From NCBI GenBank assembly GCA_015489815.1, contig WFZA01000058.1:1-64000 (forward strand): a stretch of 64,000 bases of DNA, given 5' to 3'. The notes under the pieces were generated by a model. That model did not search any database. It was not told the DNA's origin and saw nothing but the letters and a program-made list of their open reading frames with translations. Position numbers and translations under genes: made by a program. Below, piece by piece: positions 37,185 to 55,635 of the stretch (position 1 is the stretch's first letter; every line of letters starts with the position of its first letter). The stretch comes from Caldisericales bacterium. Its GTDB lineage: Bacteria; Caldisericota; Caldisericia; Caldisericales; Caldisericaceae.

Positions 37185-39527
37185 TTATTCAGGATCTACA
37201 GGTTCCAGTTTCTTTTCTTTAGACTTTCTTATTGCTTCTAATACACGCTCAGGTGTGTACGGTGAGCGATGTAATCTAATTCCAAGCGCATCGTGTAGTG
37301 CGTTTCCAATTGCAGGAATTGGGCCATTGATGTTAATCTCTGCAACGGATTTTGCTCCATAGGGGCCTGTAGGTTCGTATGTTTCTGCAAGAATTACTTT
37401 AATTTCTGGTAAGTCTCTCGTCGAAGGAATCTTATAGTCCATAAAGTTTGGATTTGTCATTCTACCAGATGGAGTAAAGTGATATTCTTCTGTAAGTGCA
37501 TAACCGATGCCATTAACCAGAGCACCGATAATTTGCCCTTTTACGAGATTTGGATTTATTGGAACTCCGCAATCTACTGCAGCCACATACTTTATTGGCT
37601 TAATCTCACCTGTTTCTTCGTCTACTTCTATTTCAACGAAGTGTACTGCAAATGGAGGAGGGGAATAAGGAGAAACAAAAGATCCAGTCGCACCTATTTG
37701 ATGCTGGTTCTTCACATATAAAGTATCATATGCAATTTCAGACAGTGTAATGCTCTTTCCACTCTTTGGGCTGATAACTTTACCATTTTCTAAGATGTAA
37801 TCTTTTGAGTCAGGTTCCCCAAACTTTTCTCTTGCAACTTCGAGAATTTGTTCTCTTACTTTAAGTGCAGCTTTTAGTACTGCTCCGCCAGAAACAAAGG
37901 TACCGCTCGATGCGTATGCACCTACATCAAATGGGGTAAGATCTGTGTCTGAAGCGTATACGATTACCTGTTCTGGTTTTATACCCAGTGTTTCTGCAAC
38001 TATTTGTGCTGCTACTGTGTCGAGTCCCGTTCCGATGTCCGTTCCGCCGTATAACAGGTTAAAGGAGCCGTCTTCGTTCATTTTTAAAGTTGCTGCACCC
38101 ATGTCTATTAATGGTATTCCAGAGCCCTGCATGTGCATCGACATACCTACTCCACGCACTTTGCTTCCGTTTCTTTTTGGCCTTCCGTATTTCTCGAACC
38201 AGCCTATTTCTTTTGCACCCTTTTCCAATAACTCGTCAAGTGCACAACTCTGAATGTATTGTGTTACACCTTCCCTGCCTTCACCAAGTGCTCTAAATAT
38301 AGGTGAGGTCTCTCCTGCTTTTATGTGGTTTTTCTTTCTTAGTTCCCAGGGATCCATTCCGAGTTTCTCAGCTACCATGTCGATTGCCTGCTCAAGTGCT
38401 GCATATCCCTGTGTTGCACCGTATCCTCTATAAGCGCCTGCCACCGGCATATTTGTGTATACGATATCGGAAATGAACTCTACATTTTCTGCCTTATTAT
38501 ACAATGGAAGCGTTTTCGAGCCAGCATTTGACGCAACTGTAAGTCCATGGGTTCCGTATGCACCTGTGTTGCTCAAGGCGTACAAACTGATTGCGTGCAG
38601 CATGCCGTCTTTTTTTGCCCCAATTTTTACCTTTACTTTAAATGGATGACGGGTTCTTGCTGAAATAAATTCTTCTTCTCTTGTGTAGAGAATTCTTGCA
38701 GGCCTGCCTGTTTTAAGTGTTACAAAGGAGCAGATTTCCTCAAGAATAATTTCCTGTTTTGTGCCAAATCCACCACCGATGCGTGGCTTAATTACGCGTA
38801 TTTTTTGCACTGGAATTTGTAATGCCTGTGCCACAATTCTTCTTACATGGAATGGTACCTGCGTGGATGTACGAATTACGAGCCTTCCATATTCGTCAAG
38901 ATAGGTAATTGTTACATGGGGCTCAATTGGTGTGTGTTGTGCATACTGCGTTTCAAATGTTTCCTCTACGACTACATCAGATTCTTTAAATCCCTTCTCT
39001 ATGTCGCCTACTCTGATGTCTATGTGTGCTGCAAGATTCTTTTTTGGATCGTATGCGCCCGTTATCCATGGTTCATCGTGGATTATAGGTGCACCCTCTT
39101 TCATTGATTCCTCGGGATCTAAAATTGCAGGAAGCACTTTATATTTAACCTTGATAAGTTTTAGAGCTTCTGTAGCCTGTTCTTCTGTCTCTGCCGCAAC
39201 GGCTGCTACTCTGTCCCCTACGAATTTTACTTTCTCGTTAAACATCCAGGTGTCGTAGGGGGACGGTTCTGGCCATCCCTGTCCTGCCGTCGTGTGTGGT
39301 ATATGTGGTGTATTTTTATAAGTCAATACCATTTTAACCCCAGGGTATTTTTCTGCTTCGCTTGTATCTATATCTTCTATGATTGCATGTGCGTGGGGGG
39401 AATATAAAAGTTTGATCTGCAGCGTGTTGGGAAAACTTACATCGTCCACAAACATTGGTTGTCCTGTTGCAAGGGACAATGCGTCAATCTTCTTGGTGTC
39501 TTTGCCAATGCTTTTAAAATTACTCAT
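37185..39527 (-). CDS. xdhA: Xanthine dehydrogenase, molybdopterin subunit
   Basis: A 780-aa molybdenum hydroxylase large subunit. The N-terminal hammerhead domain (about 1-130) is followed by molybdopterin-binding segments such as PRIGGGFGTKQEI and AGAYRGYGATQGYAALE. Near the C-terminus GAKSVAEINING carries the catalytic Glu. With the FAD and 2Fe-2S subunits it oxidises hypoxanthine to xanthine and possibly xanthine to urate. The exact substrate, and whether the enzyme is selenium-dependent, cannot be read from sequence. It overlaps the FeS subunit by 8 bp. Its gene order FAD-FeS-Mo is typical. Confidence 0.93.
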   Translation of the reverse strand: MSNFKSIGKDTKKIDALSLATGQPMFVDDVSFPNTLQIKLLYSPHAHAIIEDIDTSEAEKYPGVKMVLTYKNTPHIPHTTAGQGWPEPSPYDTWMFNEKVKFVGDRVAAVAAETEEQATEALKLIKVKYKVLPAILDPEESMKEGAPIIHDEPWITGAYDPKKNLAAHIDIRVGDIEKGFKESDVVVEETFETQYAQHTPIEPHVTITYLDEYGRLVIRTSTQVPFHVRRIVAQALQIPVQKIRVIKPRIGGGFGTKQEIILEEICSFVTLKTGRPARILYTREEEFISARTRHPFKVKVKIGAKKDGMLHAISLYALSNTGAYGTHGLTVASNAGSKTLPLYNKAENVEFISDIVYTNMPVAGAYRGYGATQGYAALEQAIDMVAEKLGMDPWELRKKNHIKAGETSPIFRALGEGREGVTQYIQSCALDELLEKGAKEIGWFEKYGRPKRNGSKVRGVGMSMHMQGSGIPLIDMGAATLKMNEDGSFNLLYGGTDIGTGLDTVAAQIVAETLGIKPEQVIVYASDTDLTPFDVGAYASSGTFVSGGAVLKAALKVREQILEVAREKFGEPDSKDYILENGKVISPKSGKSITLSEIAYDTLYVKNQHQIGATGSFVSPYSPPPFAVHFVEIEVDEETGEIKPIKYVAAVDCGVPINPNLVKGQIIGALVNGIGYALTEEYHFTPSGRMTNPNFMDYKIPSTRDLPEIKVILAETYEPTGPYGAKSVAEININGPIPAIGNALHDALGIRLHRSPYTPERVLEAIRKSKEKKLEPVDPE

Positions 39528-39993
39528 CTTTCCCCTCCTTTAAAAGTTTTACTGCGAACTTTACTGCTTCTACTTGCTGGACATATCCAGTACATCTACA
39601 TAAGTTTCCGTCCAGTGCTTTTTTGATGTCTTCATCTGTTGGATTCGGGTTTTTCTTTAAAAGAGCATATGCGGAAAGTATAGTTCCTGGAGTGCAAAAT
39701 CCACATTGGACGGCGCCAACATCTACAAATGCTTTTTGCAACGGATGCGGGTTATTTAGGTCGCCAATCCCTTTTATAGTTGTTATATGCTTTCCATTTA
39801 CTTTTGCAGCAAGGATTGTGCAGCTTGTATGTGGCTCTCCGTCAATAAGGACTGTACATGCACCGCAGGTGCCCAAATAACAATTTCCTTTTATTTCAGA
39901 GTGTCCGTTCCTCCTTAAAACATCTAATAATACTTCACCAGGATGAATTTCGTATTCTTCCTCTTTGCCGTTTATTATGTATTTTACCTTCAT
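39520..39993 (-). CDS. xdhC: Xanthine dehydrogenase, 2Fe-2S subunit
   Basis: A 157-aa small subunit with both iron-sulfur clusters of the XDH family. The plant-ferredoxin-type site is Cys38, 43, 46 and 58 (CYLGTCGAC, SCTI). The second site is Cys97, 100, 132 and 134 (CGFCTPG, LCRCTGY). It passes electrons from molybdenum to FAD. It overlaps the FAD subunit by 4 bp and the large subunit by 8 bp. Confidence 0.96.
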   Translation of the reverse strand: MKVKYIINGKEEEYEIHPGEVLLDVLRRNGHSEIKGNCYLGTCGACTVLIDGEPHTSCTILAAKVNGKHITTIKGIGDLNNPHPLQKAFVDVGAVQCGFCTPGTILSAYALLKKNPNPTDEDIKKALDGNLCRCTGYVQQVEAVKFAVKLLKEGKDE

Positions 39994-40847
39994 TTTGCTG
40001 CCTCCAATGCTTCTAATAAAATTCTCTTTGCATATATATGTGAAAGATTTTTACGATATTCTTCTGTCGTTCTCGTGTCTGTGCCAACTTCTATGTGCTC
40101 TTCCACAAATTTGCCGAATTCCTCTGCGAGATCTTCTGAAAGCTCTCTGCCTTTGAGAAATTCACCAGCTCCCTGCATCAAGTATGCTGGTTTTGGCCTT
40201 GAGCCTGCAGCTACTCTCGCAGATGTTATCATTTTTCCTTCCGTTTTTAGCAGCGTTGCCATGTTGAACAGTGCAATGTCAGTTGCGTTTCTTACATAAC
40301 GCTTCATTGAAAAGAAATAATCTTTTGGATATTTCTCAAGGATTACTTCTTTTATAATTCTTTCCTTGAGTAGTCTTTTGAAGTTCTCTTTGTAGAAGTC
40401 GTTTATAGAGACGATTTCGTCCCATTCACCGTCCGAAAGCACGATTTTTCCATTAAGCCCGTATAAAAGTGTTACAATGTCTGAATACGGCTCTCTTTTT
40501 CCAAGCGAACCGCCTACTGTAATTTGATTTCTTAATAGTTCTGTTGCAATCTCTGGCAATACAGAGTGTACACAGCCACCCATATAGTCTTTAATCAGGT
40601 CAGATTCAATAAGATTAGTAATAGTAGTCATCGCTCCTATTTTGATTCCTTCAGAGGAATCTTTTACATACGAAAGATTTAAATTGTCTAAGAAAATCAG
40701 AAATTTAATTCTTGGATTGGGAAATACAGAAATGTCCAATCCTCCACCTACTACTTCTGCTAAGTCTCCATGTGAACGAAGAATGTCTACTGTTTCCTTA
40801 ATTGTTTGAGGATAATAGACTTCTTCGATTCCTTTTAGTTTTAACAT
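39990..40847 (-). CDS. xdhB: Xanthine dehydrogenase, FAD subunit
   Basis: A 285-aa FAD-binding subunit of the CO-dehydrogenase/XDH medium-subunit type. FAD contacts include VVGGGLDISVFPNP near residue 38 and the TVGGSLGKREPYSDIVTLL segment around 112-130. It transfers electrons to NAD+ or another acceptor. First gene of the minus-strand xdh operon, with GGAGAGGAGGGC as ribosome site. It is divergent from ssnA across 88 bp of overlapping promoters. Confidence 0.95.
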   Translation of the reverse strand: MLKLKGIEEVYYPQTIKETVDILRSHGDLAEVVGGGLDISVFPNPRIKFLIFLDNLNLSYVKDSSEGIKIGAMTTITNLIESDLIKDYMGGCVHSVLPEIATELLRNQITVGGSLGKREPYSDIVTLLYGLNGKIVLSDGEWDEIVSINDFYKENFKRLLKERIIKEVILEKYPKDYFFSMKRYVRNATDIALFNMATLLKTEGKMITSARVAAGSRPKPAYLMQGAGEFLKGRELSEDLAEEFGKFVEEHIEVGTDTRTTEEYRKNLSHIYAKRILLEALEAAK

Positions 40848-40935: not shown

Positions 40936-42285
40936 ATGAAGATAATAGGCAATGCATCAATTTTAACTCTCGGTAAAAAGGGATTTATAAGCGACGGAGC
41001 AATCCTGATTGATGGAGAAGTAATCAAACAGATAGGTACAACTGAAGACCTCAAAAACAAATTTCCTGATGCGGAATTTATTGATGCTCAGCACAGGCTT
41101 GTTATGCCAGGATTCCTTAATGCACACATGCATCTTTACAGTACATTCGCAAGGGGAATGGCGTTGAAAGGAGAACCACCGAAGACATTTGGAGAAATTT
41201 TGAAAAAGCTCTGGTGGAAATTGGATAAAAATTTAACTACTAAAGAGGAAATATACTACAGCGCGGTTGTTCCTCTGATTGAGGGGATTAAAACAGGTAC
41301 CACTGCAATACTGGATCACCATGCGTCATTTGGACTAATAGACGGAAGCCTTGATATAATTGAGAAAGCAGTCCTTGATACGGGGGTGCGTGCAGCGCTT
41401 TGCTATGAAACTTCCGACCGCTGGGGAAAAGAAGCGCGCGATGCATCTATTCGTGAAAATGTGAGATTTATCCGCAAAAAACAGGCAAATACGGGGGCCG
41501 AACCTGAAACACTTACTGCCGCAACTTTTGGAATGCATGCATCTCTTACCCTGTCTGATGAAACTCTTGAAATTGCAAAGGGCGAGGCGGATTCTTTGGG
41601 CGTAGGTTTTCACATTCATGTTGCAGAAGGTGAAGAAGATGTAGAAGATTCTTTAAAAAAGAGTGGCGTAAGAGTCGTAGAAAGATTACAGAAATTCGGC
41701 ATTCTTGGTGATAAAACACTTGCCATTCACTGCATACATATAAATGAAAAAGAAATAGATATTTTAAAAGAAACGAATACAATGGTGGTGCACAATCCTG
41801 AATCAAATATGAATAATGCTGTAGGTGTTGCACCAATACTTGAATTCTTTAAGAAAGGCATTCTTACAGGTATAGGAACTGACGGCTATACGCCTTCAAT
41901 GTTTGAGTCCGTAAAAGTTGCGTATGTACTGCCAAAACTCCACTACGGCGATCCACGAGTTGGCGGAAGCGAATCGCAAAAAATGCTGTTTGAAAATAAC
42001 AGAAAAATCTTTGCAAAGTTTTTCAACAGGCCTGTTGGCATAATCGAAGAAGGTGCTTTTGCGGATATTATAATCCTTGATTACTTCCCACCTACTCCAT
42101 TCAATGAAAACAATGCATTTTACCATCTTATTTTTGGAATGAGGGATAATATGGTGAATACGACCATAATCAATGGAAAGGTCGTTATGAAAGATCATAA
42201 GCTTACAGAAATAAACGAGGAAGAAATTATGGCAAAGGCAAGGGAAGTTTCAAAGAAATTCTGGGAGAAAATGGAAAATGAATAG
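40936..42285 (+). CDS. ssnA: SsnA-like amidohydrolase/aminohydrolase
   Basis: A 449-aa amidohydrolase-superfamily protein close to SsnA and related purine/triazine deaminases. The metal site has HMH at residues 64-66 (LNAHMHLYST), with further His in HIHVAEG and HCIHIN and the Asp in GIGTDGY. The usual reaction is hydrolytic deamination of a purine-like ring, for example guanine to xanthine. SsnA itself belongs to the E. coli purine catabolic set with XdhD, HyuA, YgeW, YgeY and ArcC, most of which follow here. It overlaps ade by 8 bp. Confidence 0.88.
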   Translation: MKIIGNASILTLGKKGFISDGAILIDGEVIKQIGTTEDLKNKFPDAEFIDAQHRLVMPGFLNAHMHLYSTFARGMALKGEPPKTFGEILKKLWWKLDKNLTTKEEIYYSAVVPLIEGIKTGTTAILDHHASFGLIDGSLDIIEKAVLDTGVRAALCYETSDRWGKEARDASIRENVRFIRKKQANTGAEPETLTAATFGMHASLTLSDETLEIAKGEADSLGVGFHIHVAEGEEDVEDSLKKSGVRVVERLQKFGILGDKTLAIHCIHINEKEIDILKETNTMVVHNPESNMNNAVGVAPILEFFKKGILTGIGTDGYTPSMFESVKVAYVLPKLHYGDPRVGGSESQKMLFENNRKIFAKFFNRPVGIIEEGAFADIIILDYFPPTPFNENNAFYHLIFGMRDNMVNTTIINGKVVMKDHKLTEINEEEIMAKAREVSKKFWEKMENE

Positions 42286-44014
42286 AAAGTTTTCTCGAAA
42301 AGAGCTCGAAGAAATTATTGATGCAGCCAGAGGGCTTAGAAAAGCAGACTTGTTAATTAAAAACGGAAGGGTTGTAAATGTATTTAACGAAACTATAGAA
42401 GAAAAGGATGTATTGATTCATAAGGGCATTGTTGTAGGAGTAGGAAAGTACGATGATGCAGAAGTAATTGTTGATGCTAATGGGCGTTTTGTTGCTCCAG
42501 GTTTTACTGACGCTCATATGCACATTGAAAGCACGATGTCTATCCCGCCGGAATTTGCAAAAGCAGTAATCCCTCTTGGTACGACTACTGCTGTAGTGGA
42601 TCCTCACGAAATTGCAAATGTTGCAGGCATTCCAGGTATCCAGTTTATGATTAATTCTTCTGAAAACCTTCCTATGGACATTTATTTTATGCTTTCGAGT
42701 TGCGTACCTGCGACTCCACTTGAAACATCTGGTGCGCATTTGTATGCAGAGGACCTTGCTATTTTTAAAGATAATCCGCGTGTTTTGGGCCTTGCAGAAA
42801 TGATGAACTATCCAGGGCTGCTTGCAAAAGTGCCTGAGGTGCTGGATAAAATTGCAAAGTTTAGAGATATGATCATCGACGGCCATGCGCCTGGACTCAG
42901 CGGAAAAGATTTAAATGCATATCTTGCTGCAGGTGTTATGGCTGATCACGAATGTACAGTTCCAGATGAAGCAAACGAAAAGCTCTCTAAAGGTATGTGG
43001 ATTATGATGCGTGAAGGTTCTCTTACACGCGATGTTTTACGGCTTTTGCCTATATTGAATGACCATACGAAGCACAGGATTATGCTGGCGACTGATGATA
43101 AACATCCGGAGGATCTTGTCCATGAAGGGCACATAAATTTTGCGATTTCGCTTCTACTGAACAATGGAGTTTCACTTCCTGTTGCTGTCCGTCTTGCCAC
43201 GCTAAACTCTGCAAATTTCTTCGGATTTAAGCGTAAGGGTGGCATTGCACCTGGATACGATGCAGACCTCGTAATTTTTAAAGATATTCTAAGAATTGAA
43301 AAAGTATACAAGGACGGAGTGCTTGTTGCTGAAAATGGAAAACCCCTGTTTGAGTTTAAAGGAGAGTTACACGACGATGCCGTTAAGAACACGATAAATA
43401 TTAAACCTGTTACTTTTGAGAAACTTCGTGTTCCTGTTGAAAAAGGGAAGATAAGGGTAATAGGCATACATCCTGACACAATTTTGACGGACGAACTTCT
43501 TTATGAACCTAAAGTTGAAAATGGAGTTGTCGTTTCTGATGCTGAAAGGGATATTATAAAGATTGCCGTCGTTGAAAGACATAAAGCAACGGGAAATGTA
43601 GGTATAGGATTTATTCACGGTCTTGGATTGAAAAAAGGTGCTTTTGCAACTTCTGTTGCGCACGACTCTCACAATATTATCGTTGCTGGTGAAAATGATA
43701 AAGACATGCTACTTGCTATTGCGCAAATAGAGGCAATGGGTGGTGGCATTGCTATTGCAAAAGACGGAAAGATTTTAGGCAGTTTAGCATTGCCGTACGG
43801 AGGGCTTATGACGAACAGGCCTATCACTGAAACCTCAGAAATTTTAATAAACCTCCACAAGATTGCAAAAGAGGAAAATGAAGCATCCGTGTCTGACCCG
43901 TTTATGACGCTGGCATTTATGAGTCTTCCTGTGATACCGAAGTTAAAAATTACAGACAAAGGACTCGTTGATGTAGATAAATTTGACTTTGTTCCTTTAT
44001 TTAAGGAGGAGTAA
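42278..44014 (+). CDS. ade: Adenine deaminase
   Basis: A 578-aa adenine deaminase of the amidohydrolase superfamily, converting adenine to hypoxanthine and ammonia. The family signature DAHMHIESTMSIPPEFAKAV supplies metal-binding His residues, DPHEIANVAG is typical, and the C-terminal half contains GHGLGLKKGA-like and MGGGIAIAKDGK stretches of the AdeC type. It feeds hypoxanthine to the neighbouring xanthine dehydrogenase. It overlaps ssnA by 8 bp and hyuA by 1 bp. Confidence 0.95.
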   Translation: MNRKFSRKELEEIIDAARGLRKADLLIKNGRVVNVFNETIEEKDVLIHKGIVVGVGKYDDAEVIVDANGRFVAPGFTDAHMHIESTMSIPPEFAKAVIPLGTTTAVVDPHEIANVAGIPGIQFMINSSENLPMDIYFMLSSCVPATPLETSGAHLYAEDLAIFKDNPRVLGLAEMMNYPGLLAKVPEVLDKIAKFRDMIIDGHAPGLSGKDLNAYLAAGVMADHECTVPDEANEKLSKGMWIMMREGSLTRDVLRLLPILNDHTKHRIMLATDDKHPEDLVHEGHINFAISLLLNNGVSLPVAVRLATLNSANFFGFKRKGGIAPGYDADLVIFKDILRIEKVYKDGVLVAENGKPLFEFKGELHDDAVKNTINIKPVTFEKLRVPVEKGKIRVIGIHPDTILTDELLYEPKVENGVVVSDAERDIIKIAVVERHKATGNVGIGFIHGLGLKKGAFATSVAHDSHNIIVAGENDKDMLLAIAQIEAMGGGIAIAKDGKILGSLALPYGGLMTNRPITETSEILINLHKIAKEENEASVSDPFMTLAFMSLPVIPKLKITDKGLVDVDKFDFVPLFKEE

Positions 44015-45390
44015 TGAAAAAAATTAAAAATGGATTTATCGTGAAAGAAGGTAATAACCTTCAAAAAGTTACGATATACATAGAAGATGGTAAAATTCGT
44101 TTTGTTATGCCTGGCAACGATAATTCGTATGAGGTATCCGAAGAAGTTGACGCAGAAGGAAATGTTGTTTTTTCAGGCTTTATAGATCCTCATGTACACT
44201 TTGACGATCCAGGCTTTACAGATAGGGAGGATTTCGAAACTGGGACGAGAAGTGCGGCAGCCGGAGGTATTACTACTATAATAGATATGCCGTGCACTTC
44301 TATTCCTCCTGTAACAAGTGGCGATAACTTTGACAATAAATTAAACATCGTTTCGAAAAAGGCGTATATCGACTTTGCATTCTGGGGTGGTGTTACGCCT
44401 GAGCAGATTAAAAATGGAGAGTATAAGAAAACTCTAAGAGAACTTAAAGATAGAGGAATTGTAGGAGTAAAATTTTATACAATTTCTGGAATGGATCTTT
44501 ATCCACGGATGCCTGTCCCTCAAATGCACAGAGCATTTGAATATTTAAAGAAACTTAATCTCATATGTGGAGTACATGCAGAAGATTTCTATTTAGTTGA
44601 CTTTTATTCGTCCCTATTACAAAAACAGGGTAGAAGTGACCCTTATGCCTGGTTTGAAGGAAGGGTTTATCAGGCAGAAGCAGAGGCTATTTGGTCAGTT
44701 ATAGGTATTACACAAAAAGTGGGCAATAAGCTTCACATCGTGCACTTATCCTCTAAGGAAGGGCTACATGCAGTAAAGTGGGGAAAAACTCATGGGATAG
44801 ACATAACAACTGAAACCTGTCCGCATTATTTGTTGTTTAATGTAGAGGACTTAACGCGTATGGGTGCTATTTTAAAAACTGCTCCGCCTGTGCGTAGAAA
44901 GGAAGACAATTTGGCTCTCTGGGAAGGGCTAAAAGATGGGACGATAGACTTTATTTCTACGGATCATGCAGCAGGAAAGTTTCCTGAAGAAAAATCTGGC
45001 CCCAATATCTGGAAGGATTATGCAGGCATTCCAGGAACACAGCTTGTTGCTTCTACTATAATTATGTACGCACACCACGAAAATGGCTTTACACTGGAAA
45101 AGGTTCAAAAACTACTGTCTGAGAATGCAGCAAGGCGTTACGGTTTGTATCCTTTAAAGGGTTCACTTAATATTGGAACAGACGCCGATTTTACGATCGT
45201 TAATATAAATGAAGAATTTACCGTAGATGCAACAAAACTTGAAAGTAAAGGAAAATATTCACCGCTAAATGGCTCAAAGCTTAGAGGAAAGGTGAAAAAA
45301 ACGATTGTGCGCGGAGAAGTGGTATTTGACGATAAAGTAGGAGTTCTCAATAAAAAGGGCTTCGGAAAGCTTGTAAAAAGCATGCTATGA
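44014..45390 (+). CDS. hyuA: Dihydropyrimidinase/hydantoinase family (HyuA-like)
   Basis: A 458-aa cyclic amidohydrolase. The dimetal site comprises His60 and His62 (DPHVHFDD), a probable carboxylated Lys153 (GVKFYTIS), later His residues (GVHAED, IVHLSS) and Asp in STDHAA. The family opens cyclic amides, as in dihydropyrimidines, hydantoins and allantoin. In this setting the likely substrate is an oxidised or reduced purine ring. The sequence is also allantoinase-like, and the two cannot be separated by eye. A 1-bp overlap joins it to ade and a 4-bp overlap to the MBL gene. Confidence 0.87.
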   Translation: MKKIKNGFIVKEGNNLQKVTIYIEDGKIRFVMPGNDNSYEVSEEVDAEGNVVFSGFIDPHVHFDDPGFTDREDFETGTRSAAAGGITTIIDMPCTSIPPVTSGDNFDNKLNIVSKKAYIDFAFWGGVTPEQIKNGEYKKTLRELKDRGIVGVKFYTISGMDLYPRMPVPQMHRAFEYLKKLNLICGVHAEDFYLVDFYSSLLQKQGRSDPYAWFEGRVYQAEAEAIWSVIGITQKVGNKLHIVHLSSKEGLHAVKWGKTHGIDITTETCPHYLLFNVEDLTRMGAILKTAPPVRRKEDNLALWEGLKDGTIDFISTDHAAGKFPEEKSGPNIWKDYAGIPGTQLVASTIIMYAHHENGFTLEKVQKLLSENAARRYGLYPLKGSLNIGTDADFTIVNINEEFTVDATKLESKGKYSPLNGSKLRGKVKKTIVRGEVVFDDKVGVLNKKGFGKLVKSML

Positions 45391-46193
45391 AAATAACTGT
45401 TCTCGTAGATAATTACATTACAAAGAGAGATTTTATTGCAGAGCACGGGTTTTCCCTACTTATAGAAACTGATGACAAGAAAATCCTTTTTGATACTGGG
45501 CAGGGATATGCGTTAAAAAATAACTTAGATGTTTTAAAAATAAATCCTCACGGTATAGATTTTATTGTTTTAAGTCACGGGCACGACGACCATACAGGTG
45601 GGTTAAAGTTCTTTATAGAAGAAAAAGTTTTTCCGCGTATTACTGCACATCCTGATGTAGTATTACCTAAGTATAAAGTTGAATCAGGTAAAAAAGAAAA
45701 TATCGGTTTGAAGTATTCATTAGGTGTTTTTCATCCAGAATTTTTTAAGGGGCCGCGAGCTCTTGACGAAAAGATTGTATTTTCTGGAGAAGTACCAAAG
45801 GTGAATCAATGGGAGCTTGAAGAAACCAAATATTTCAGGGAAGTTAATGAGCAATTAGAGAAAGATCCATTTACAGACGATGTTTCACTATTTGTTACTA
45901 CTGATAAAGGGCTTGTAGTCCTTACGGGTTGCGCACATTCAGGAATAATAAATATAATTCAATATGGACTTGAGGTTACACATTCGGATCATCTGCGTGG
46001 CATAATAGGAGGTATGCATTTAAAAAATGCTTCACAGAAGCGTATTGAAAAGACTGTTAGTATATTAAAAGAATTAAATCCTGAATTTATAACAGTTTCG
46101 CATTGTACAGGGCTGGAAGCGGGAGTTGTATTTAAAAATGTTTTAAAAGATAAAGTAATTTTTACTTCTGTTGGTATGTGGTTTTCTATTTAA
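45387..46193 (+). CDS. Metallo-beta-lactamase-fold hydrolase
   Basis: A 268-aa MBL-fold protein of the group annotated as dihydropteridine / ribofuranosylaminobenzene phosphate synthase-related. The metal motif SHGHDDHTGG gives His64, His66, Asp68 and His69, with later His in TGCAHSGI and a C-terminal SHCTG. Its reaction is unknown. Being embedded with 4-bp coupling between hyuA and ygeY implies a step in purine breakdown, possibly hydrolysis of a ring-opened amide. This is inferred from context only. Confidence 0.78.
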   Translation: MKITVLVDNYITKRDFIAEHGFSLLIETDDKKILFDTGQGYALKNNLDVLKINPHGIDFIVLSHGHDDHTGGLKFFIEEKVFPRITAHPDVVLPKYKVESGKKENIGLKYSLGVFHPEFFKGPRALDEKIVFSGEVPKVNQWELEETKYFREVNEQLEKDPFTDDVSLFVTTDKGLVVLTGCAHSGIINIIQYGLEVTHSDHLRGIIGGMHLKNASQKRIEKTVSILKELNPEFITVSHCTGLEAGVVFKNVLKDKVIFTSVGMWFSI

Positions 46194-47484: not shown

Positions 47485-48474
47485 ATGAATACAAAATTAA
47501 AAGGCAGAGATTTTTTATCTACCAATGATTGGACTCTTGAAGAGTTAGAGCAGGTGCTTGACTTATCTTTTAAATTTAAACAGGAACGCGCGCTAAGGGT
47601 TCCTCATTCAAATATTCTTCCGGGAAGAGAACTCTTTATGATATTTAAGGATAAGTCTACAAGAACGAGAAACTCTACAGAAACTGCAATGATTCAACTC
47701 GGAGGCCATGCTACGTATCTTCCTGCAGAAGCAACCCAGATTTCTCACGGCGATACGGCGAAAGAAATCGGAATAATCTTCTCCCGTTATGGTGACGGAA
47801 TTGCTATTAGAGACGATATCTACCTTGGCGTAGGCCAAAAGTATATGGAAGATGTTGCAAAATGGGCAGATGTCCCTGTGATAAACCTTGAATCAGATTG
47901 GGACCATCCTATGCAAATGCTTGCAGATATTATGACTATTAAAGAAAAATTCAATAACGATATTCGCGGTAGAAAGTTTGTCATTTCCTGGGCGTATGCA
48001 ACTTCTCATGCAAAACCGCCTGCGGTCCCTCAGGGACTTATTATGATGATGCCGCGTTTTGGACTCAATGTAACACTTGCAATGCCAAAAGAGTTTGCAG
48101 TAAGTCCAAAGGCAATGGAAATTGCTGAGAAAAACGCGAAGGAAGCTGGTGTAAAATTTGAAGTAGTAAACGATATGGATGAGGCTTTTAAGGATGCGGA
48201 TATAGTGTATCCAAAGTCATGGGGTGCTTACTACTATGCGGAGAATAATTTTGAAGAAATGAAAAAAATTGCTGATAAATATAAGGATTGGATTGCAGAT
48301 GAGAGGCGTATGAAACTTGCAAAGAAAAATGCGATTTATATGCATTGTTTGCCAGCAGATAGGGGTGCTGAAGTAACAAATGAAGTTATTGACGGGCCTC
48401 AATCTGTTATCTATGATGAAGCAGAGAATAGATTGCATACGGTAAAGGCTGTTCTTGCTTTAACTATTAGATAA
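47485..48474 (+). CDS. ygeW: YgeW-like transcarbamylase
   Basis: A 329-aa aspartate/ornithine carbamoyltransferase-fold enzyme. The carbamoyl-phosphate loop is STRTR (58-62), HPMQ starts at His141 and HCLPADRG is near 288. The segment after STRTR (NSTETAM) differs from ornithine transcarbamylase (usually xSFE), which fits the YgeW group of unusual specificity. It is probably run in the catabolic direction, moving a carbamoyl group from the purine-derived ureido compound to phosphate for the carbamate kinase next door. It is shorter than E. coli YgeW (about 396 aa). Confidence 0.87.
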   Translation: MNTKLKGRDFLSTNDWTLEELEQVLDLSFKFKQERALRVPHSNILPGRELFMIFKDKSTRTRNSTETAMIQLGGHATYLPAEATQISHGDTAKEIGIIFSRYGDGIAIRDDIYLGVGQKYMEDVAKWADVPVINLESDWDHPMQMLADIMTIKEKFNNDIRGRKFVISWAYATSHAKPPAVPQGLIMMMPRFGLNVTLAMPKEFAVSPKAMEIAEKNAKEAGVKFEVVNDMDEAFKDADIVYPKSWGAYYYAENNFEEMKKIADKYKDWIADERRMKLAKKNAIYMHCLPADRGAEVTNEVIDGPQSVIYDEAENRLHTVKAVLALTIR

Positions 48475-48496: not shown

Positions 48497-49447
48497 GTGG
48501 GAAAATTAGCTGTGCTTGCAATCGGGGGGAATTCTCTGATAAAAGACAAGCAACATGAGACGGTAGAAGATCAGTACAAAGCAGTTTGCGAAACTGCTAA
48601 ACACATTGTGGGAATGGTAGAGCAAGGTTTCGATGTAGTTGTGACACATGGAAATGGGCCGCAGGTAGGATTTATTTTAAGGCGCTCCGAAATTGCTCAT
48701 GATGTTGCTGGTATGCATCCGGTACCTCTGGTGAACTGTGGTGCTGATACGCAGGGTGCGATTGGTTATCAAATCCAGCAGGCACTTGATAATGAATTTC
48801 TTAGAAGGGGTATTAGTAAGAGAGCAGCTACTGTCGTAACGCAGGTTGTTGTGGACAAAAATGACCCTGCTTTTAAAAATCCGTCTAAACCTATTGGTAC
48901 TTTCTATACAAAAGAGCAAGCAGATAAACTCAAAAAAGAACATCCTGACTGGGTGATTATAAATGATGCGGGTAGGGGATATAGAAGAGTTGTTCCTTCT
49001 CCAATGCCCAAAGAAATTGTAGAACAGGCTGCAATTGAGCTTCTTGTTAAGAATGGTTTTAGTGTTGTAGGTGTTGGCGGTGGCGGCATTCCTGTTATAA
49101 GAAACGATAATGGAGAATTAGAAGGTATTGATGCTGTTATTGATAAAGATAATGCCTCAAGCTTGCTTGCTGTGAACATTAAAGCAGATATATTTATAAT
49201 TTCAACTGCTGTAGAAAAGGTATACTTAAATTATAACAAACCGAATCAAAAAGCTCTGGACAAGATGACAGTTGCAGAAGCGAAGAAGTACATTGAAGAA
49301 GGACACTTTGCAAAAGGTAGTATGCTCCCAAAAATTCAGGCTGTTATTCGTTTCCTTGAAGCAGGTGGCAGGGAGGCAATAATAACAAATCCTGAATCAC
49401 TTGAGCGGGCTCTGAAAGGCGAAACGGGCACACATATTTATCCGTAG
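48497..49447 (+). CDS. arcC: Carbamate kinase
   Basis: A 316-aa carbamate kinase, making ATP and carbamate from carbamoyl phosphate and ADP when catabolic. Landmarks are the N-terminal LAIGGNSLIK, VVTHGNGPQVG, the conserved block with NCGADTQGAIGYQIQQAL, VGVGGGGIPV and DKDNASSLLA. The start is a GTG with a strong GGAGGTGA ahead of it. It follows ygeW, so YgeW and ArcC form the ATP-yielding end of the pathway. A strong terminator follows. Confidence 0.96.
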   Translation: MGKLAVLAIGGNSLIKDKQHETVEDQYKAVCETAKHIVGMVEQGFDVVVTHGNGPQVGFILRRSEIAHDVAGMHPVPLVNCGADTQGAIGYQIQQALDNEFLRRGISKRAATVVTQVVVDKNDPAFKNPSKPIGTFYTKEQADKLKKEHPDWVIINDAGRGYRRVVPSPMPKEIVEQAAIELLVKNGFSVVGVGGGGIPVIRNDNGELEGIDAVIDKDNASSLLAVNIKADIFIISTAVEKVYLNYNKPNQKALDKMTVAEAKKYIEEGHFAKGSMLPKIQAVIRFLEAGGREAIITNPESLERALKGETGTHIYP

Positions 49448-49627: not shown

Positions 49628-50755
49628 ATGAGAAAGTATAAAGTATTAGCTGCTTTGCTCGTAGTTTTATTAGTTGTTTCGTTGTTTGTTGGTTGTGCTC
49701 CAAAAAAAACACAGCCAAGTAACGGTGGCAATGCGCAGAAACCAAAAGAGAAAATTAAAGTTGCAATGTTACTTGTTGGTCCAAAAAATGACGGTGGTTG
49801 GTCACAGGCACACTATGAAGGTCTTATGTATCTAAAAGATCACGATCCAAATGTAGAAGTTGCATATTCAGAAAATGTCCCAGAAGGTGCTCCAGCAGAG
49901 AAAGTTATTAGAGATTATTGTAATCAGGGTTACAAAGTGATATTTGGGACGAGCTTCGGATTTATGGATCCTATGTATGATGCGGCAAAGGACTATCCAA
50001 ATGTTATTTTTGAGCACTGCTCTGGTTATAAGACTCGTAAGAATATGGGTACATACTTTGGTAGAATGTATCAGCCAGACTATCTTGCAGGTCTTGTTGC
50101 AGGTATGATGACGAAAACTAACTACATTGGTTTTGTTGCGCCGTTCTCAATTCCGGAAGTTGTCAGGGAAATTGACGCTTTTACTATTGGTGTGAGAGAA
50201 GTAAATCCTAAGGCGGAAGTTCATGTGGTATGGTTAAATACATGGTTTGACCCAACTAAAGAAGGTAATGCAGCAAAAACATTCATTGCTAATGGTGCTG
50301 ACATTATTGCAAGTGGTATGGACTCTCCTGCCCCACTTGTTGAAGCGCAGAAAGCAGGCATATACGCAATAGGTTACGATAGAGATATGTCGACTTATGC
50401 ACCTAAGGCAGTCCTTACTTCTCGTATCTGGCACTGGGGTGTATTCTATACAAAATGCTTAAAAGAGGTTGAAGATGGAACCTGGAAGTCTACCCAGTAT
50501 TGGGGTGGCATGAAAGATGGTATCGTAAGTCTTGCTCCATTTGGACCTATGGTGCCCGAAAAGGTAAAACAATATGTAGAAAAGAGAGAAAAAGAGATTA
50601 AAGACGGTACATTCAAAGTATTTGAAGGCCCTATTTATGATCAGCAAGGAAACCTTAAAGTGCCGAAGGGCCAGGAACTCTCTGATGCTGATAAGCTACA
50701 ACTTCAATGGTTTGTTAAAGGAGTAGTTGGAAGCATACCAAAGAGTGGTTCTTAA
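49628..50755 (+). CDS. BMP-family nucleoside-binding lipoprotein
   Basis: A 375-aa substrate-binding lipoprotein. The signal peptide ends in the lipobox FVGC (Cys23). The mature protein has BMP/PnrA-family segments: KVAMLLVGPKNDGGWSQAH, GTSFGFMDPMYDAAKDYPN and YFGRMYQPDYLAGLVAG. The family captures purine nucleosides outside the membrane for the ABC importer encoded next. The location after the purine catabolic genes supports a purine ligand. AGGAGGAGG precedes the ATG. Confidence 0.93.
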   Translation: MRKYKVLAALLVVLLVVSLFVGCAPKKTQPSNGGNAQKPKEKIKVAMLLVGPKNDGGWSQAHYEGLMYLKDHDPNVEVAYSENVPEGAPAEKVIRDYCNQGYKVIFGTSFGFMDPMYDAAKDYPNVIFEHCSGYKTRKNMGTYFGRMYQPDYLAGLVAGMMTKTNYIGFVAPFSIPEVVREIDAFTIGVREVNPKAEVHVVWLNTWFDPTKEGNAAKTFIANGADIIASGMDSPAPLVEAQKAGIYAIGYDRDMSTYAPKAVLTSRIWHWGVFYTKCLKEVEDGTWKSTQYWGGMKDGIVSLAPFGPMVPEKVKQYVEKREKEIKDGTFKVFEGPIYDQQGNLKVPKGQELSDADKLQLQWFVKGVVGSIPKSGS

Positions 50756-50773: not shown

Positions 50774-50811
50774 ACCCTCAGCATAAGACGATCTATGCTG
50801 AGGGTATTTTT
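50774..50811 (+). terminator. Hairpin/attenuator between binding protein and ATPase
   Basis: A 12-bp perfect stem ACCCTCAGCATA (50774-50785) / TATGCTGAGGGT (50794-50805) with an 8-nt loop and a short ATTTTTG tail. The tail is weak, so partial read-through is likely. This is the usual way to make more binding protein than membrane components. Confidence 0.7.
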
Positions 50812-50827
50812 GTAAATGGAGGATGAT

Positions 50828-52357
50828 ATGGCTGAATATATTCTTCAAGCAAGAAATATTACTAAAAAGTTCCCCGGAGTGTTAGCAAACGATCACATTA
50901 ATTTTGATCTTAAAAAAGGAGAAATTCACACTATACTTGGTGAAAATGGGGCAGGAAAGTCTACATTAATGAACATTCTTGACGGTATTTATTACCCAAA
51001 CGAGGGAGAAATATACATAAATGGCAAGAAAGCAAACATACGCTCTCCTTTTGATTCTATGCGCTACGGTATAGGAATGATTCATCAACACTTTATGCTT
51101 GTAGATACATTAACGGTTCTGGAAAATGTAATTTTAGGTTTGAAAGATCAAAGTTTTTTTATAAATAAAAAACAAATAGCTGATAAAATCATCGAGATAT
51201 CGGATAAGTATAAGTTTGACTTAAAACCTTTTGCCAAGATCTGGCAACTTTCTGTTGGTGAGCAGCAGAGAGTAGAGATAGTGAAGATGCTTTTTAGAGG
51301 AGCGGATATTCTTATACTTGACGAACCTACAGCGGTTCTTACGCCTCAGGAGTCGGAGGCACTATTTGAAATTCTAAAAAAGATGAAGAGTGAGGGAAAG
51401 TCAATTATATTTATAAGCCATAAATTAAATGAAGTAATGGAAATTTCTGATAGAATTACTGTTTTAAGGAAAGGTAAAGTTATAGGAACTGTAAATAAAG
51501 AAGAGACTAATCCTGTGGAACTTGCAAAAATGATGGTAGGCAGGGAAGTTTTGTTTAGATTACAGCGCAAACCTCTGGAGCGAGGAGAAGAAGTTTTAAA
51601 AGTTGAAAATGTAGAAGCCTATAATGACAGAGGTATAAAAGTTCTAAATAAAATTGGCTTTACTGTACATAAAGGAGAAATTTTTGGGCTTGCTGGAGTT
51701 GCGGGAAATGGGCAAAAAGAACTTGCACAGGTTATAACTGGGTTAAGGAAAGCAACCAGTGGAAAAGTTTTTTTACTAGGAAAGGACATTACAAACCAGC
51801 ATCCTCTTGTGATTGCAAATAGTGGAACAAATTACATTCCGCCTGATAGGCTAAAGGTCGGCCTTATTCCTAATCTCTCTTCTATAGATAATGCAATATT
51901 AAGACGATACAGGAAGAATCCGATTGGCTCTGGAATACTGGTTAACTACAAAAAGGCCAGGGAATATACAGAGAGCTTGATAGAGAAGTTTAATATAATG
52001 GTTCCACGAATTGATGCACCTGTAAAATTACTCTCTGGTGGAAATATGCAAAAACTACTTCTTGCGCGAGAAATTTCTGAAAATCCTGCGCTTCTTATAG
52101 CAGTGCATCCTACCAGAGGTTTAGACATTGGTGCAACAGAATTTATACGAAAAAAACTTCTTGAAGTTAGAGATAGTGGTATGGCCGTGCTTTTAATTTC
52201 GGAGGACCTGGATGAAATATTAATGATTTCTGATCGTATAGGGGTAATTTACGAGGGAAGAATTACCGGAATAATGGATGCAAAGGATGCGGATGTTCAT
52301 AAAATTGGCCTTCTTATGGCAGGTTCTACCGAAGAAGAAAGCGCAACAGTGCACTGA
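50828..52357 (+). CDS. Nucleoside ABC transporter ATPase (tandem domains)
   Basis: About 509 aa with two ABC domains, as in RbsA/NupO-type importers. Domain 1: Walker A GENGAGKSTLM, signature LSVGEQQRVEI, Walker B LILDEPTAVLTP. Domain 2: degenerate P-loop GVAGNGQKELA, signature LSGGNMQKLLLA, HPTRGLDIGATEF. Such unequal domains are normal in this family. GGAGG at 50818-50822 is correctly spaced to the ATG at 50828. A start at 50816 would begin inside the ribosome site. Two permease genes follow. Confidence 0.94.
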   Translation: MAEYILQARNITKKFPGVLANDHINFDLKKGEIHTILGENGAGKSTLMNILDGIYYPNEGEIYINGKKANIRSPFDSMRYGIGMIHQHFMLVDTLTVLENVILGLKDQSFFINKKQIADKIIEISDKYKFDLKPFAKIWQLSVGEQQRVEIVKMLFRGADILILDEPTAVLTPQESEALFEILKKMKSEGKSIIFISHKLNEVMEISDRITVLRKGKVIGTVNKEETNPVELAKMMVGREVLFRLQRKPLERGEEVLKVENVEAYNDRGIKVLNKIGFTVHKGEIFGLAGVAGNGQKELAQVITGLRKATSGKVFLLGKDITNQHPLVIANSGTNYIPPDRLKVGLIPNLSSIDNAILRRYRKNPIGSGILVNYKKAREYTESLIEKFNIMVPRIDAPVKLLSGGNMQKLLLAREISENPALLIAVHPTRGLDIGATEFIRKKLLEVRDSGMAVLLISEDLDEILMISDRIGVIYEGRITGIMDAKDADVHKIGLLMAGSTEEESATVH

Positions 52358-52367
52358 GAGGTGAGAT

Positions 52368-53462
52368 ATGATTAGATTTGAAAAAAGAGAATCAACTTCT
52401 ACGAGCTTAAAAATTCTTATCCCAACAGTATCCATTATTTTAGGTATTTTAATTGGTGCTGTGGCAATTCTTTTAAAGGGAATTAATCCCATTAAAGTAT
52501 ACCAGGCCCTTTTAATAGGTGCGTATAGCAGTAAGTATACATTCTCTGAAACACTCGTTGCAGCAACACCGCTTATTTTAATCTCTGCAGGGTTGATCGT
52601 GGTATTTAAAATGAACTTCTGGAACATTGGTGCATACGGGCAGTACATCATGGGTGCAATCTTTAGTTCTTACTTCGCAATTTTTTGGTCACCGCACATT
52701 CCCAAGGTAATAATGCTTACCGTTATGGTAATTGCAGGTATGGTAGGTGGTGCGTTGTGGGCCATTATTCCCGCTTTGCTTAAAGCATATTGGGAGGTAA
52801 ACGAAGTTATTTCTACCCTACTTCTTAATTACATTGCACTTTTTGTGCTGAAGTTTTTAATGTATGGTACCTGGAGAGATCCGTTAAGCCACGGCTTTCC
52901 GCTGTCAAAACCATTCCCGAATAATGCCCAGCTTCCAAGAATAATACCTCATACGCGTGTTAATTTGGGATTAATATTTGGTATTATAGCTGTTTTCGTC
53001 GTATGGTATCTTCTTAAAAAGACGAAATTTGGGTACGAAATCAGGGTAATTGGTGAAAATCCTAATGCAGCGCGTTATGCAGGAATGAATGTGGCAAAAA
53101 ACATTATTATTGCTATGATTATAAGTGGTGCACTTGCAGGTCTTGCTGGGATGGTTCAGGTTTCTGGAATTATCCATTTACTTCAGATTAAAATTAATCC
53201 GGATTATGGGTATACGGCGATTATCGTAGCATGGCTTGCTTATCTTGACCCAATTGTTGCATCTTTCTTTGCTGTGTTTCTTGGTGGCCTTGCATCTGGT
53301 GCTTACCAGATTCAGATTACGATGCAGGTGCCTTTTGGAATCGTAGGCGTTATTGAAAGTGCAATTCTTTTTGTTTTAATTGGTAGCGAGATTTTTATGA
53401 GATATCGTTTGGTTTTTGATGTGGGGAAGAAAAAACATAGTGGCCAGGAGGAAACATTATGA
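52368..53462 (+). CDS. Nucleoside ABC transporter permease 1
   Basis: A 364-aa BPD_transp_2 (RbsC/NupP-type) permease with about nine to ten hydrophobic helices. Typical family segments are MNFWNIGAYGQYIMGAI, VNEVISTLLLNYIAL and GENPNAARYAGMNV, the EAA-like coupling loop. It forms half of the membrane channel for the importer. It starts 10 bp after the ATPase and overlaps the second permease by 4 bp. Confidence 0.93.
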   Translation: MIRFEKRESTSTSLKILIPTVSIILGILIGAVAILLKGINPIKVYQALLIGAYSSKYTFSETLVAATPLILISAGLIVVFKMNFWNIGAYGQYIMGAIFSSYFAIFWSPHIPKVIMLTVMVIAGMVGGALWAIIPALLKAYWEVNEVISTLLLNYIALFVLKFLMYGTWRDPLSHGFPLSKPFPNNAQLPRIIPHTRVNLGLIFGIIAVFVVWYLLKKTKFGYEIRVIGENPNAARYAGMNVAKNIIIAMIISGALAGLAGMVQVSGIIHLLQIKINPDYGYTAIIVAWLAYLDPIVASFFAVFLGGLASGAYQIQITMQVPFGIVGVIESAILFVLIGSEIFMRYRLVFDVGKKKHSGQEETL

Positions 53463-54400
53463 GCGGAGCACATCACATCGTATTAATAGTGTTATTTTCT
53501 GCGGCAGTTCAATCAGGTACGACACTTCTGTATCCTACGATTGGGGAGATATTTGCTGAGCGTTCTGGTATATTAAACCTTGGCGTTGAGGGTATGATGA
53601 TAATGGGTGCGTTTTTTGGTTTTGTAGTTACCTATATTACGAGGAATCCTTATATTGGATTTCTTGCAGGTGTGTTAGCTGGAGGAGCAGCGGCTTTGAT
53701 TCATGCTTTTGTTTCAATTACACTCAGGGGTAATCAGGTGGTAAGTGGATTGGCACTTACTATTTTTGGATTAGGATTTACTAATTTTTATGGGCAGAGG
53801 TGGATCAATTTGCGCTCTCCAGTTACGGTGTCTCAGATGTCTGTTCCACTACTTTCTAAAATACCTTACATAGGTCCAATTTTCTTTAAGCAAGATGCGC
53901 TTGTTTATACATCTTACATAGTTGCAATTGTTATGTGGTTCATTCTTTATAAGACAAAAGTAGGTGTTCACCTTCGTGCAACAGGACAGAATGCTCGTGC
54001 AGCAGATGCAATGGGTGTAAATGTATATGCAACGCGTTACTGGTGGACATTTTTTGGTGGTTTACTTGCAGGTGCAGGTGGTGCTTACCTTACAATTGCT
54101 TATGCCCCGTTCTGGCTTGACGGAATGACAGCAGGTAGGGGATGGATAGCAATTGCTCTCGTAATATTTGCGATGTGGGATCCGTTAAATGCAATGGTTG
54201 GTGCGTACTTATTCGGTGGAATTGATGCATTACAATTGCAGTTACAGGCAGTTGGAGTAACGATTCCTTCCTCTCTGCTTAATATGCTTCCGTACCTTTT
54301 AACATTGATTGTTATTATTATTGCTACACTTATCGTAAGGGTAAAACACATATCGGCACCGAAGGAACTTGGTATTCCGTACAATAGGGAGGAAAAGTAA
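53459..54400 (+). CDS. Nucleoside ABC transporter permease 2
   Basis: A 313-aa BPD_transp_2 (NupQ-type) permease with about eight to nine hydrophobic helices. Typical blocks are ERSGILNLGVEGMMIMGAF near the N-terminus, LRGNQVVSGLALTIFGLG, and the coupling loop ATGQNARAADAMGVN. It is the second half of the channel. It overlaps permease 1 by 4 bp and the PLP enzyme gene by 1 bp, which makes the enzyme part of the transporter operon. Confidence 0.93.
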   Translation: MSGAHHIVLIVLFSAAVQSGTTLLYPTIGEIFAERSGILNLGVEGMMIMGAFFGFVVTYITRNPYIGFLAGVLAGGAAALIHAFVSITLRGNQVVSGLALTIFGLGFTNFYGQRWINLRSPVTVSQMSVPLLSKIPYIGPIFFKQDALVYTSYIVAIVMWFILYKTKVGVHLRATGQNARAADAMGVNVYATRYWWTFFGGLLAGAGGAYLTIAYAPFWLDGMTAGRGWIAIALVIFAMWDPLNAMVGAYLFGGIDALQLQLQAVGVTIPSSLLNMLPYLLTLIVIIIATLIVRVKHISAPKELGIPYNREEK

Positions 54401-55635
54401 TGAGCTATGTAAAAAAGCTAAAATGCTTATTGTGTGGTAGTGAATATAATCCTGACGAGGTAACTTACACATGTCCAAAGTGTGGTAACGATGGGATTCT
54501 TGAAGTAATTTATGATTACGAGGAAATTAAAAAACACTTCTCTAAAGAATCTCTTCAAAGCAATAAAGATTACTCAATGTGGCGTTACCTGCCTCTCTTG
54601 CCAGTTAACGATCCTTCTAAGATTGGTCCCTTGAAGGTTGGCTGGACGCCACTTTACGAAGCAAAAAGAATTAGAGAGGATTTAGATGTTCCGTATCTAT
54701 GGATTAAAGATGACGGTAGAAACCCTACTGCGTCACTAAAGGATCGTGCATCAGCAATAGCTATAGTTAAGGCTCAGGAACTTGGAAAGAAAGTTGTAAC
54801 TTGTGCATCTACTGGTAATGCTGCCTCTTCGCTTGCAGGAGCTTCTGCTTCCGTGGGATTGAAAAATTACATTTTTGTGCCAAGGACGGCTCCAAAGGCA
54901 AAAATTGCACAACTTCTCGTTTTTGGGGCGACTGTACTTACCGTAAAAGGCAGTTACGATGAAGCATTTGACCTTTCCATTAAAGCAACTGAGAAATTCG
55001 GATGGTACAATAGAAACACCGCATTCAATCCGTATATGGTGGAAGGCAAAAAAACTGTAGCTCTTGAGATCATAGAACAAATGAATTTTGAAGTGCCTGA
55101 TTATGTGTTTGTTTCTGTTGGTGATGGCTGTATTATTTCTGGTGTTGCAAAAGGATATAGGGATATGCTTTCGCTCGGATTTATTGATAAGATGCCTAAA
55201 CTCGTTGCTGTGCAGGCAGAAGGATGCAAACCTATTGTTGATGCTGTTAACGGTGATGGGACTGTAAAATTTGTTAAACCAGATACAATTGCAGATAGTA
55301 TTGCTGTTGGCATTCCACGGAATAGAGTAATGGCTGTAAGAGATGTGAAAGAGTCTGGTGGTTTTGGCATTGCTGTCAGCGACGAAGAAATTTTATCTGC
55401 AATTAAATATTTAGGTTCTACGCAGGGAATCTTTGCGGAACCTGCAGGTGCAACTGGTTTTGCTGGAATGTTAAAAGCGCTGAAAGAAGGAAAAATCAGT
55501 AAGAATGACAAAATTGTAGTTATTGTGACTGGGAATGGACTAAAAGATGTAGAAAGTGCACAGAAGGCAGGAGGTACTCCTATTGAAATTGAACCGCGGA
55601 TTGAAGATGTGGAAAGAGTACTTAAAGAAAAGTGA
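54400..55635 (+). CDS. Threonine-synthase-like PLP-dependent lyase
   Basis: A 411-aa fold-type II PLP enzyme. An N-terminal zinc ribbon (Cys9, 12, 25, 28) precedes the catalytic domain, where Lys114 in NPTASLKDRA should bind PLP; typical threonine synthase reads NPTGSFKDR. The phosphate-binding loop is STGNAASSLAG. No homoserine kinase or dehydrogenase gene is nearby. Instead it ends the nucleoside transporter operon beside ygeY-ygeW-arcC, where other genomes have YgeX, a PLP 2,3-diaminopropionate ammonia-lyase. It could be a true threonine synthase or a lyase replacing YgeX. Confidence 0.85.
   Translation: MSYVKKLKCLLCGSEYNPDEVTYTCPKCGNDGILEVIYDYEEIKKHFSKESLQSNKDYSMWRYLPLLPVNDPSKIGPLKVGWTPLYEAKRIREDLDVPYLWIKDDGRNPTASLKDRASAIAIVKAQELGKKVVTCASTGNAASSLAGASASVGLKNYIFVPRTAPKAKIAQLLVFGATVLTVKGSYDEAFDLSIKATEKFGWYNRNTAFNPYMVEGKKTVALEIIEQMNFEVPDYVFVSVGDGCIISGVAKGYRDMLSLGFIDKMPKLVAVQAEGCKPIVDAVNGDGTVKFVKPDTIADSIAVGIPRNRVMAVRDVKESGGFGIAVSDEEILSAIKYLGSTQGIFAEPAGATGFAGMLKALKEGKISKNDKIVVIVTGNGLKDVESAQKAGGTPIEIEPRIEDVERVLKEK

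Follow-up and report, generated by a model that had tools for sequence, protein, structure and literature searches.

In the reductive degradation of uric acid by Escherichia coli, the responsible gene cluster comprises xdhD-ygfM, ygfK, ssnA, hyuA, ygeW, yqeA, ygeY and ygeX; Glu606 of XdhD is proposed to direct the reduction of urate to yanthine, and Clostridioides difficile uses a variant of the pathway with UacX and UacY (Li et al. 2025, PMC12507026). A gain of ATP from carbamoyl phosphate has been put forward for the E. coli route. UacX is a homologue of PydA and of the same type as PreA, and a dihydroorotate-dehydrogenase-like gene has been noted together with hyuA, ygeW, ygeY, ssnA, xdhABC and yqeA (Barba et al. 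2013, PMC4016543). Here we analysed a purine-related gene island at positions 37185-55635 of a 64,000-nt stretch of DNA (the window), which corresponds to positions 1-64000 of contig WFZA01000058.1 (C58) in a metagenome-assembled genome from the phylum Caldisericota (1.29 Mb, 65 contigs). Judged from its sequence, the island would encode, with a probability of roughly 0.7, the bulk of a pathway for the anaerobic, reductive degradation of purines (uric acid), in which several enzymes have been replaced.

Like the E. coli cluster, the island encodes an XdhD-like subunit with the marker glutamate, SsnA, a HyuA-type amidohydrolase, a YgeW-like carbamoyltransferase, a carbamate kinase and YgeY. Unlike the E. 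coli cluster, it has no YgfK or YgeX, its carbamoyltransferase is compact, the HyuA counterpart is allantoinase-like and a ThrC-like enzyme dependent on pyridoxal phosphate (PLP) is present; the island also possesses its own ABC importer, an adenine deaminase (Ade) and a hydrolase of the metallo-beta-lactamase (MBL) fold, while the candidate reductase lies at a separate locus. As in the C. difficile variant, a DHO_dh-type reductase (PreA) would stand in for YgfK, but in this genome it has a PreT-like FAD/FeS partner, and where C. difficile has UacY a carbamoyltransferase-kinase pair is retained.

All open reading frames of the island are intact. Its two divergent arms are separated by 88 bp, with the genes otherwise overlapping or closely packed, and the same gene order is found in G016, a genome from this genus (87-99% identity), as well as in sister genera; the clustering is therefore far beyond chance. 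The initial annotation had listed these genes in this order and on divergent arms, which is confirmed, and its proposal that purines are broken down anaerobically, with ATP regained from carbamoyl phosphate by ArcC, is also supported. Families were assigned by bit score against curated NCBIfam cut-offs and domains by Pfam. Four plus-strand products passed such cut-offs: SsnA (40936-42285; NF005540, 620 bits, cut-off 444), predicted to open the ring after dearomatisation; Ade (42278-44014; TIGR01178, 593 bits, cut-off 472); YgeY (46248-47471; NF009555, 493 bits, cut-off 321), an M20 hydrolase predicted to cleave a ureido group and 43% identical to E. coli YgeY; and the carbamate kinase ArcC (48497-49447; TIGR00746, 385 bits, cut-off 358), which is 50% identical to E. 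coli YqeA and predicted to form ATP from carbamoyl phosphate.

The minus-strand arm encodes the three subunits of a xanthine dehydrogenase (XDH)-type enzyme, namely a molybdopterin subunit (37185-39527), an XdhC-type 2Fe-2S subunit (39520-39993; Pfam Fer2_2/Fer2) and an XdhB/YgfM-type FAD subunit (39990-40847; Pfam FAD_binding_5 and CO_deh_flav_C), so that the pairing of XdhD with an adjoining FAD partner is found here as well. The best NCBIfam model for the molybdopterin subunit is TIGR03313 (Se_sel_red_Mo, 703 bits); the score lies under the cut-off because the model includes a fused Fe-S domain. Its identity to E. coli XdhD is 44% vs. 36% to E. coli XdhA, and E416 of the subunit aligns with XdhD Glu606 inside a common GEG motif. 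The equivalent position is occupied by Asn in the second XDH of this genome (contig C19) and by a gap in E. coli XdhA. Given the role proposed for this glutamate (PMC12507026), the island XDH is probably a urate reductase forming yanthine rather than a xanthine dehydrogenase. A third XDH large subunit, encoded on C58 at about 72.6-75 kb, shows Glu in the alignment without the GEG context, and we draw no inference from it.

The last gene of the plus-strand arm (54400-55635) encodes a fold-type II PLP enzyme and threonine synthase paralogue, here called ThrCL. It matches PF00291, the marker used to count YgeX in the pathway survey (Li et al. 2025, PMC12507026). ThrCL passes two threonine synthase models (NF006050, 324 bits, cut-off 303; TIGR00260, 212 bits, cut-off 167) and scores 65 bits with the curated YgeX model, the cut-off of which is 276. 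It has the fold and the PLP lysine of threonine synthases (2zsj, 1uim) and is 35% identical to a separate ThrC that the host encodes on contig C20 beside an aspartokinase-like gene. Unlike these enzymes, ThrCL lacks S155, R160 and N188, which we take to be the phosphohomoserine (substrate-phosphate) contacts of the Thermus thermophilus threonine synthase (as in Omi 2003). At the three positions, 91 of 91 ThrCL sequences, all with the PLP lysine, have A/G, L/M/T/C and D, whereas S, R and N are kept in 1uim, 2zsj and the host's own ThrC. The loss of these residues and the existence of a separate ThrC disfavour an anabolic threonine synthase.

ThrCL is instead linked to purine genes. Within the phylum-level set of 54 Caldisericota genomes it is present in 35/38 genomes with SsnA vs. 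3/16 others, and it lies directly 3′ of ArcC in YgeY-carbamoyltransferase-ArcC-ThrCL operons of the Caldisericota family f3 and of Chloroflexota. YgeX was absent from all 54 genomes in a search with a positive E. coli control. A wider survey took in 80 loci with ThrCL, representing 50 genomes of many phyla; at least one pathway gene was found nearby at 58 loci and at least two at 38, and YgeY, carbamoyltransferase, ArcC or SsnA is a neighbour of ThrCL in many phyla. SsnA exceeded its cut-off in 35 of the 50 genomes, and 25 of these 35 have no YgeX. The operon linkage and the absence of YgeX therefore support a role for ThrCL in the pathway and, where YgeX is lacking, in the lyase step, as an alternative 2,3-diaminopropionate lyase. 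The initial annotation had correctly reported YgfK and YgeX as missing (neither is present in full length anywhere in the genome) and had placed a PLP enzyme at the end of the operon, but it did not connect this enzyme with YgeX, which ThrCL plausibly replaces.

Other observations speak for a second explanation, according to which the reductive urate route holds but ThrCL performs a different reaction (as a racemase, as a lyase of another intermediate or in beta-replacement), with diaminopropionate handled by another enzyme. YgeX coexists with ThrCL in 11 of the 50 genomes, 10 of them among the 35 with SsnA, and the two stand side by side in one cluster at Desulfosporosinus-type loci (L237, L249, L270). 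Of the YgeX residues Lys77, Asp120 and Asp189, which we take to be functionally important, the lysine is kept in ThrCL, Asp120 is replaced by Thr and Asp189 falls in an alignment gap; racemases and synthases, moreover, also belong to fold type II. We give this explanation a substantial though minority chance, as it has to account for the YgeX-less genomes and for the position of ThrCL at the end of YgeY-carbamoyltransferase-ArcC. Because of the coexistence with YgeX and the loss of Asp120, we put the lyase role of ThrCL at little over even odds. At six Synergistota loci (L215, L220, L228, L229, L230, L239) ThrCL is found directly beside other M20 peptidases (30-38% identity to YgeY), often in genomes without SsnA over the cut-off, and the family is possibly used differently there.

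The protein at the HyuA position (44014-45390, plus strand) is 30% identical to E. coli HyuA and passes the allantoinase model TIGR03178 (381 bits, cut-off 358). As ureidomethyl-hydantoin is allantoin plus one CH2, an allantoinase-like enzyme would be chemically apt for its opening, and we regard the protein as a candidate for this step. The same resemblance suits an allantoin/ureide pathway composed of allantoinase, M20 amidohydrolase, carbamoyltransferase and carbamate kinase, since allantoin fermentation uses the same enzyme classes. Yet the M20 enzyme exceeds the curated cut-off for YgeY, as SsnA does for its own model, and the island XDH carries the XdhD marker glutamate, which makes an allantoin pathway improbable, although no genome-wide search was made for uricase or allantoin-specific genes. 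The neighbouring MBL-fold hydrolase (45387-46193, plus strand; PF00753) has 2p4z and 3h3e as its closest solved structures, neither with a named function; its gene is fixed between hyuA and ygeY (or the carbamoyltransferase CTa described below) in several genera but confined to part of the family.

For the reductive step, no full-length YgfK was found in the genome. Partial matches cover only positions 440-836 of the YgfK profile and were rejected as GltD/PreT/NfnB-like proteins. PreT-PreA (UacX type), encoded on contig C19 (43501-46001), away from ssnA, probably provides the reductase function. PreA contains PF01180 and passes the dihydropyrimidine dehydrogenase model (436 bits, cut-off 335); it is found in 35/38 SsnA genomes of the phylum vs. 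5/16 genomes without SsnA. The pair opens a second purine locus (C19:43501-53364) with the order PreT-PreA-XdhC-MobA-like-MoCF-like-XdhC maturation factor-XdhB-XdhA-8-oxoguanine deaminase, the last at 601 bits (cut-off 532), and in relatives of family f7 (G049-G053) PreT and/or PreA are located inside the SsnA-BMP cluster itself. With PreT-PreA and an XdhD-like subunit available, the different ring-opening chemistry suggested by the initial annotation is not needed. PreT-PreA, a dihydropyrimidinase-like HyuA and a ureido hydrolase could alternatively constitute reductive catabolism of pyrimidines (uracil), as the model passed by PreA would allow; this is very unlikely, since the neighbours of PreT-PreA are genes for XDH, 8-oxoguanine deaminase and XdhC-type maturation and, in relatives, those for SsnA and Ade, and since C. 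difficile UacX also belongs to the PydA homologues.

The carbamoyltransferase (47485-48474, plus strand) has the SxRT, HPxQ and HxLP motifs and, like YgeW (3q98), the proline-rich loop WAYATSHAKPPAVPQG, a long 120s loop (IRDDIYLGVG), YPKSW and HCLPAD. A proline-rich loop, a long 120s loop and a lysine at the start of the 240s loop are the signature of the knotted enzymes YgeW, AOTCase and SOTCase (PMC4581275), and in YPKSW such a lysine opens the 240s loop of the island enzyme. Unlike YgeW, the protein is short (329 vs. 396 residues) and has no extra 240s-loop helices. Its AlphaFold model (pLDDT 90.8) gives the best TMq, 0.90, to Enterococcus faecalis YgeW (2yfk), with 0.87-0.89 to AOTCase and 0.87 to the ornithine transcarbamylase (OTC) 1a1s, so that Foldseek does not tell knotted relatives from unknotted ones. 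With the OTC model the protein reaches 260 bits (cut-off 306), and the whole-protein score favours OTC over YgeW. The reading of carbamoyltransferase and ArcC as a standard catabolic module (OTC/arginine, or agmatine) beside purine genes is very unlikely: the top NCBIfam and sequence matches are indeed OTCs, but the loops and the lysine are those of YgeW, a distinct arginine-type OTC without this signature is encoded at C58:112530, and the pair is constantly linked to YgeY or to a second carbamoyltransferase (CTb) and to ThrCL. The identity as an ordinary OTC is thus disfavoured, and the island enzyme, which the initial annotation had considered as a possible anabolic OTC, is not the sole OTC of the host.

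In YgeY-less relatives, tandem knotted-type carbamoyltransferases, CTa and CTb, accompany ArcC (L153, L154, L155, L156, L157, L158, L164), and the knotted-type loop is present in both. CTb forms a single clade (100/100) that includes Atribacterota and Chloroflexota members and shows the motif forms SVRTR and HPMPVDRG. YgeY and CTb occupy the same operon position: the host order HyuA-MBL-YgeY-carbamoyltransferase-ArcC-BMP has as its counterpart HyuA-MBL-CTa-CTb-ArcC-BMP in genus g9, and G049/G050 have CTa-CTb-ArcC-ThrCL. Genus g12 of family f3 contains both layouts, YgeY-carbamoyltransferase-ArcC-ThrCL and CTa-ArcC-CTb plus ThrCL. Across 43 genomes of four SsnA-bearing families, 14 had YgeY only, 23 CTb only, none both and 6 neither (Fisher 5e-7); inside g12 the numbers were 5, 9, 0 and 1 (p=0.002). 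CTb was assigned by match length and identity in genomes without fetched loci. The swap within one genus and across f1 genera suggests several events. On the simplest reading, CTb would remove the ureido group otherwise hydrolysed by YgeY, so that carbamoyl phosphate is formed twice; alternatively, CTa and CTb may form a heteromeric enzyme. Genera of family f7 (L162, L163; G051-G053) carry ArcC-ThrCL and a YgeW-like carbamoyltransferase, with neither YgeY nor CTb found.

Downstream of ArcC, the plus strand encodes an ABC transporter consisting of a BMP-family binding protein (49628-50755), an ATPase (50816-52357) that is conserved beside BMP in relatives, and two permeases assigned by family match (52368-53462 and 53459-54400). 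Among solved structures the binding protein matches AtzT 6pi5 (E=1.5e-99) and 3s99 (E=2e-82), and far more weakly the nucleoside binder PnrA 2fqw (E=1.8e-5). AtzT binds guanine with a KD of 110 nM, and adenine was modelled in the Brucella protein 3s99 (PMC6834077). Five pocket positions are kept or conservatively changed, W58, S109, F110, E177 and W206, which provide the aromatic sandwich and the Ser/Glu base contacts; unlike in AtzT, N218 is Gly and N220 is Asp (D232), and the preferred base may differ. SsnA-linked BMP proteins across the phylum have a common W/Y-S-F-E-W-D pocket. The matches to base binders and the kept contacts therefore favour a purine base as the imported ligand, probably in place of the nucleosides assumed by the initial annotation. 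A genome search for purine nucleoside phosphorylase (PNP) returned three PF01048 (PNP-family) proteins, and nucleoside use by other routes is possible.

Taken together, the transporter would import purine bases, Ade would convert adenine to hypoxanthine, and the second XDH and 8-oxoguanine deaminase of the other locus would lead to urate. The XdhD-like enzyme would then reduce urate to yanthine and PreT-PreA the ring, after which both rings may be opened by SsnA and the HyuA-like enzyme, giving 2,3-diureidopropionate. One ureido group would leave as carbamoyl phosphate through the knotted-type carbamoyltransferase, for ATP formation by ArcC, YgeY would hydrolyse the other (a step that CTb would perform in YgeY-less relatives), and ThrCL, instead of YgeX, would split 2,3-diaminopropionate to pyruvate and ammonia. 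We infer each of these reactions from what was observed, that is, genes, family membership, residues, synteny and co-occurrence. The predicted energy yield is one carbamoyl phosphate and thus one ATP per purine via ArcC, and lineages with CTa/CTb could gain two. As hypoxanthine oxidation to urate releases four electrons and the conversion of urate to dihydro-yanthine takes four, purine breakdown from hypoxanthine onwards could be redox-neutral. That a widespread branch of the pathway ends in ThrCL as a new PLP family splitting diaminopropionate, and that in some lineages CTb replaces YgeY so that both ureido groups become carbamoyl phosphate and two ATP per purine result, not one, we propose tentatively, at somewhat less than even odds.

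Besides the YgeX coexistence and residue changes described above, several points weigh against the reductive uric acid pathway. The host genome is merely 77.9% complete, PreT-PreA may serve pyrimidines instead, and the co-occurrence tests ignore shared ancestry. The HyuA-like protein fails the D-hydantoinase model TIGR02033 (257 bits, cut-off 393), presumably the model behind IPR011778 (D-hydantoinase type, the HyuA marker). Finally, the carbamoyltransferase stays below the YgeW cut-off (239 vs. 453 bits); the label ygeW of the initial annotation agrees with the knotted-transcarbamylase signature but is looser than implied.

In the open literature, we found no paper that treats purine catabolism in Caldisericota or urate clusters with ThrC-like enzymes. 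The cluster is real and conserved, and it probably represents a novel form of the known reductive urate pathway. If true, this extends the pathway described in 2025 to thermophiles and to a phylum unnamed in the survey of PMC12507026, adds a purine-base importer and names concrete replacement enzymes, and a family annotated as 'threonine synthase' in many genomes gains another function. In many genomes, YgeX counts based on PF00291, which also catches ThrCL, may misread the last pathway step. With the YgeY/CTb swap, both the order in which the ureido groups leave and the ATP yield of purine fermentation become testable.

Among the remaining features of the region, a strong hairpin of 12-13 bp identified by hairpin scan between the BMP and ATPase genes (50774-50805, plus strand) may serve in processing or attenuation, and a terminator-like hairpin, a consensus match only, follows directly 3′ of ThrCL (55672-55694, plus strand). 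An Rfam search of 30-64 kb gave no matches, purine riboswitch included, and promoter matches were no commoner than in shuffled sequences. The island is adjoined (region 31192-35635) by a galT-like gene and two large open reading frames (32223-35635) that by eye resemble GH57 glycosidases; an open reading frame related to these still adjoins ssnA in relatives. About 8.5 kb past the window lies a third molybdenum-hydroxylase cluster (C58:72555-81337), which encodes an amidohydrolase resembling cytosine deaminase and a further BMP-type ABC transporter, the binding protein of which has a different pocket, two of its contact positions being Ala and Glu.

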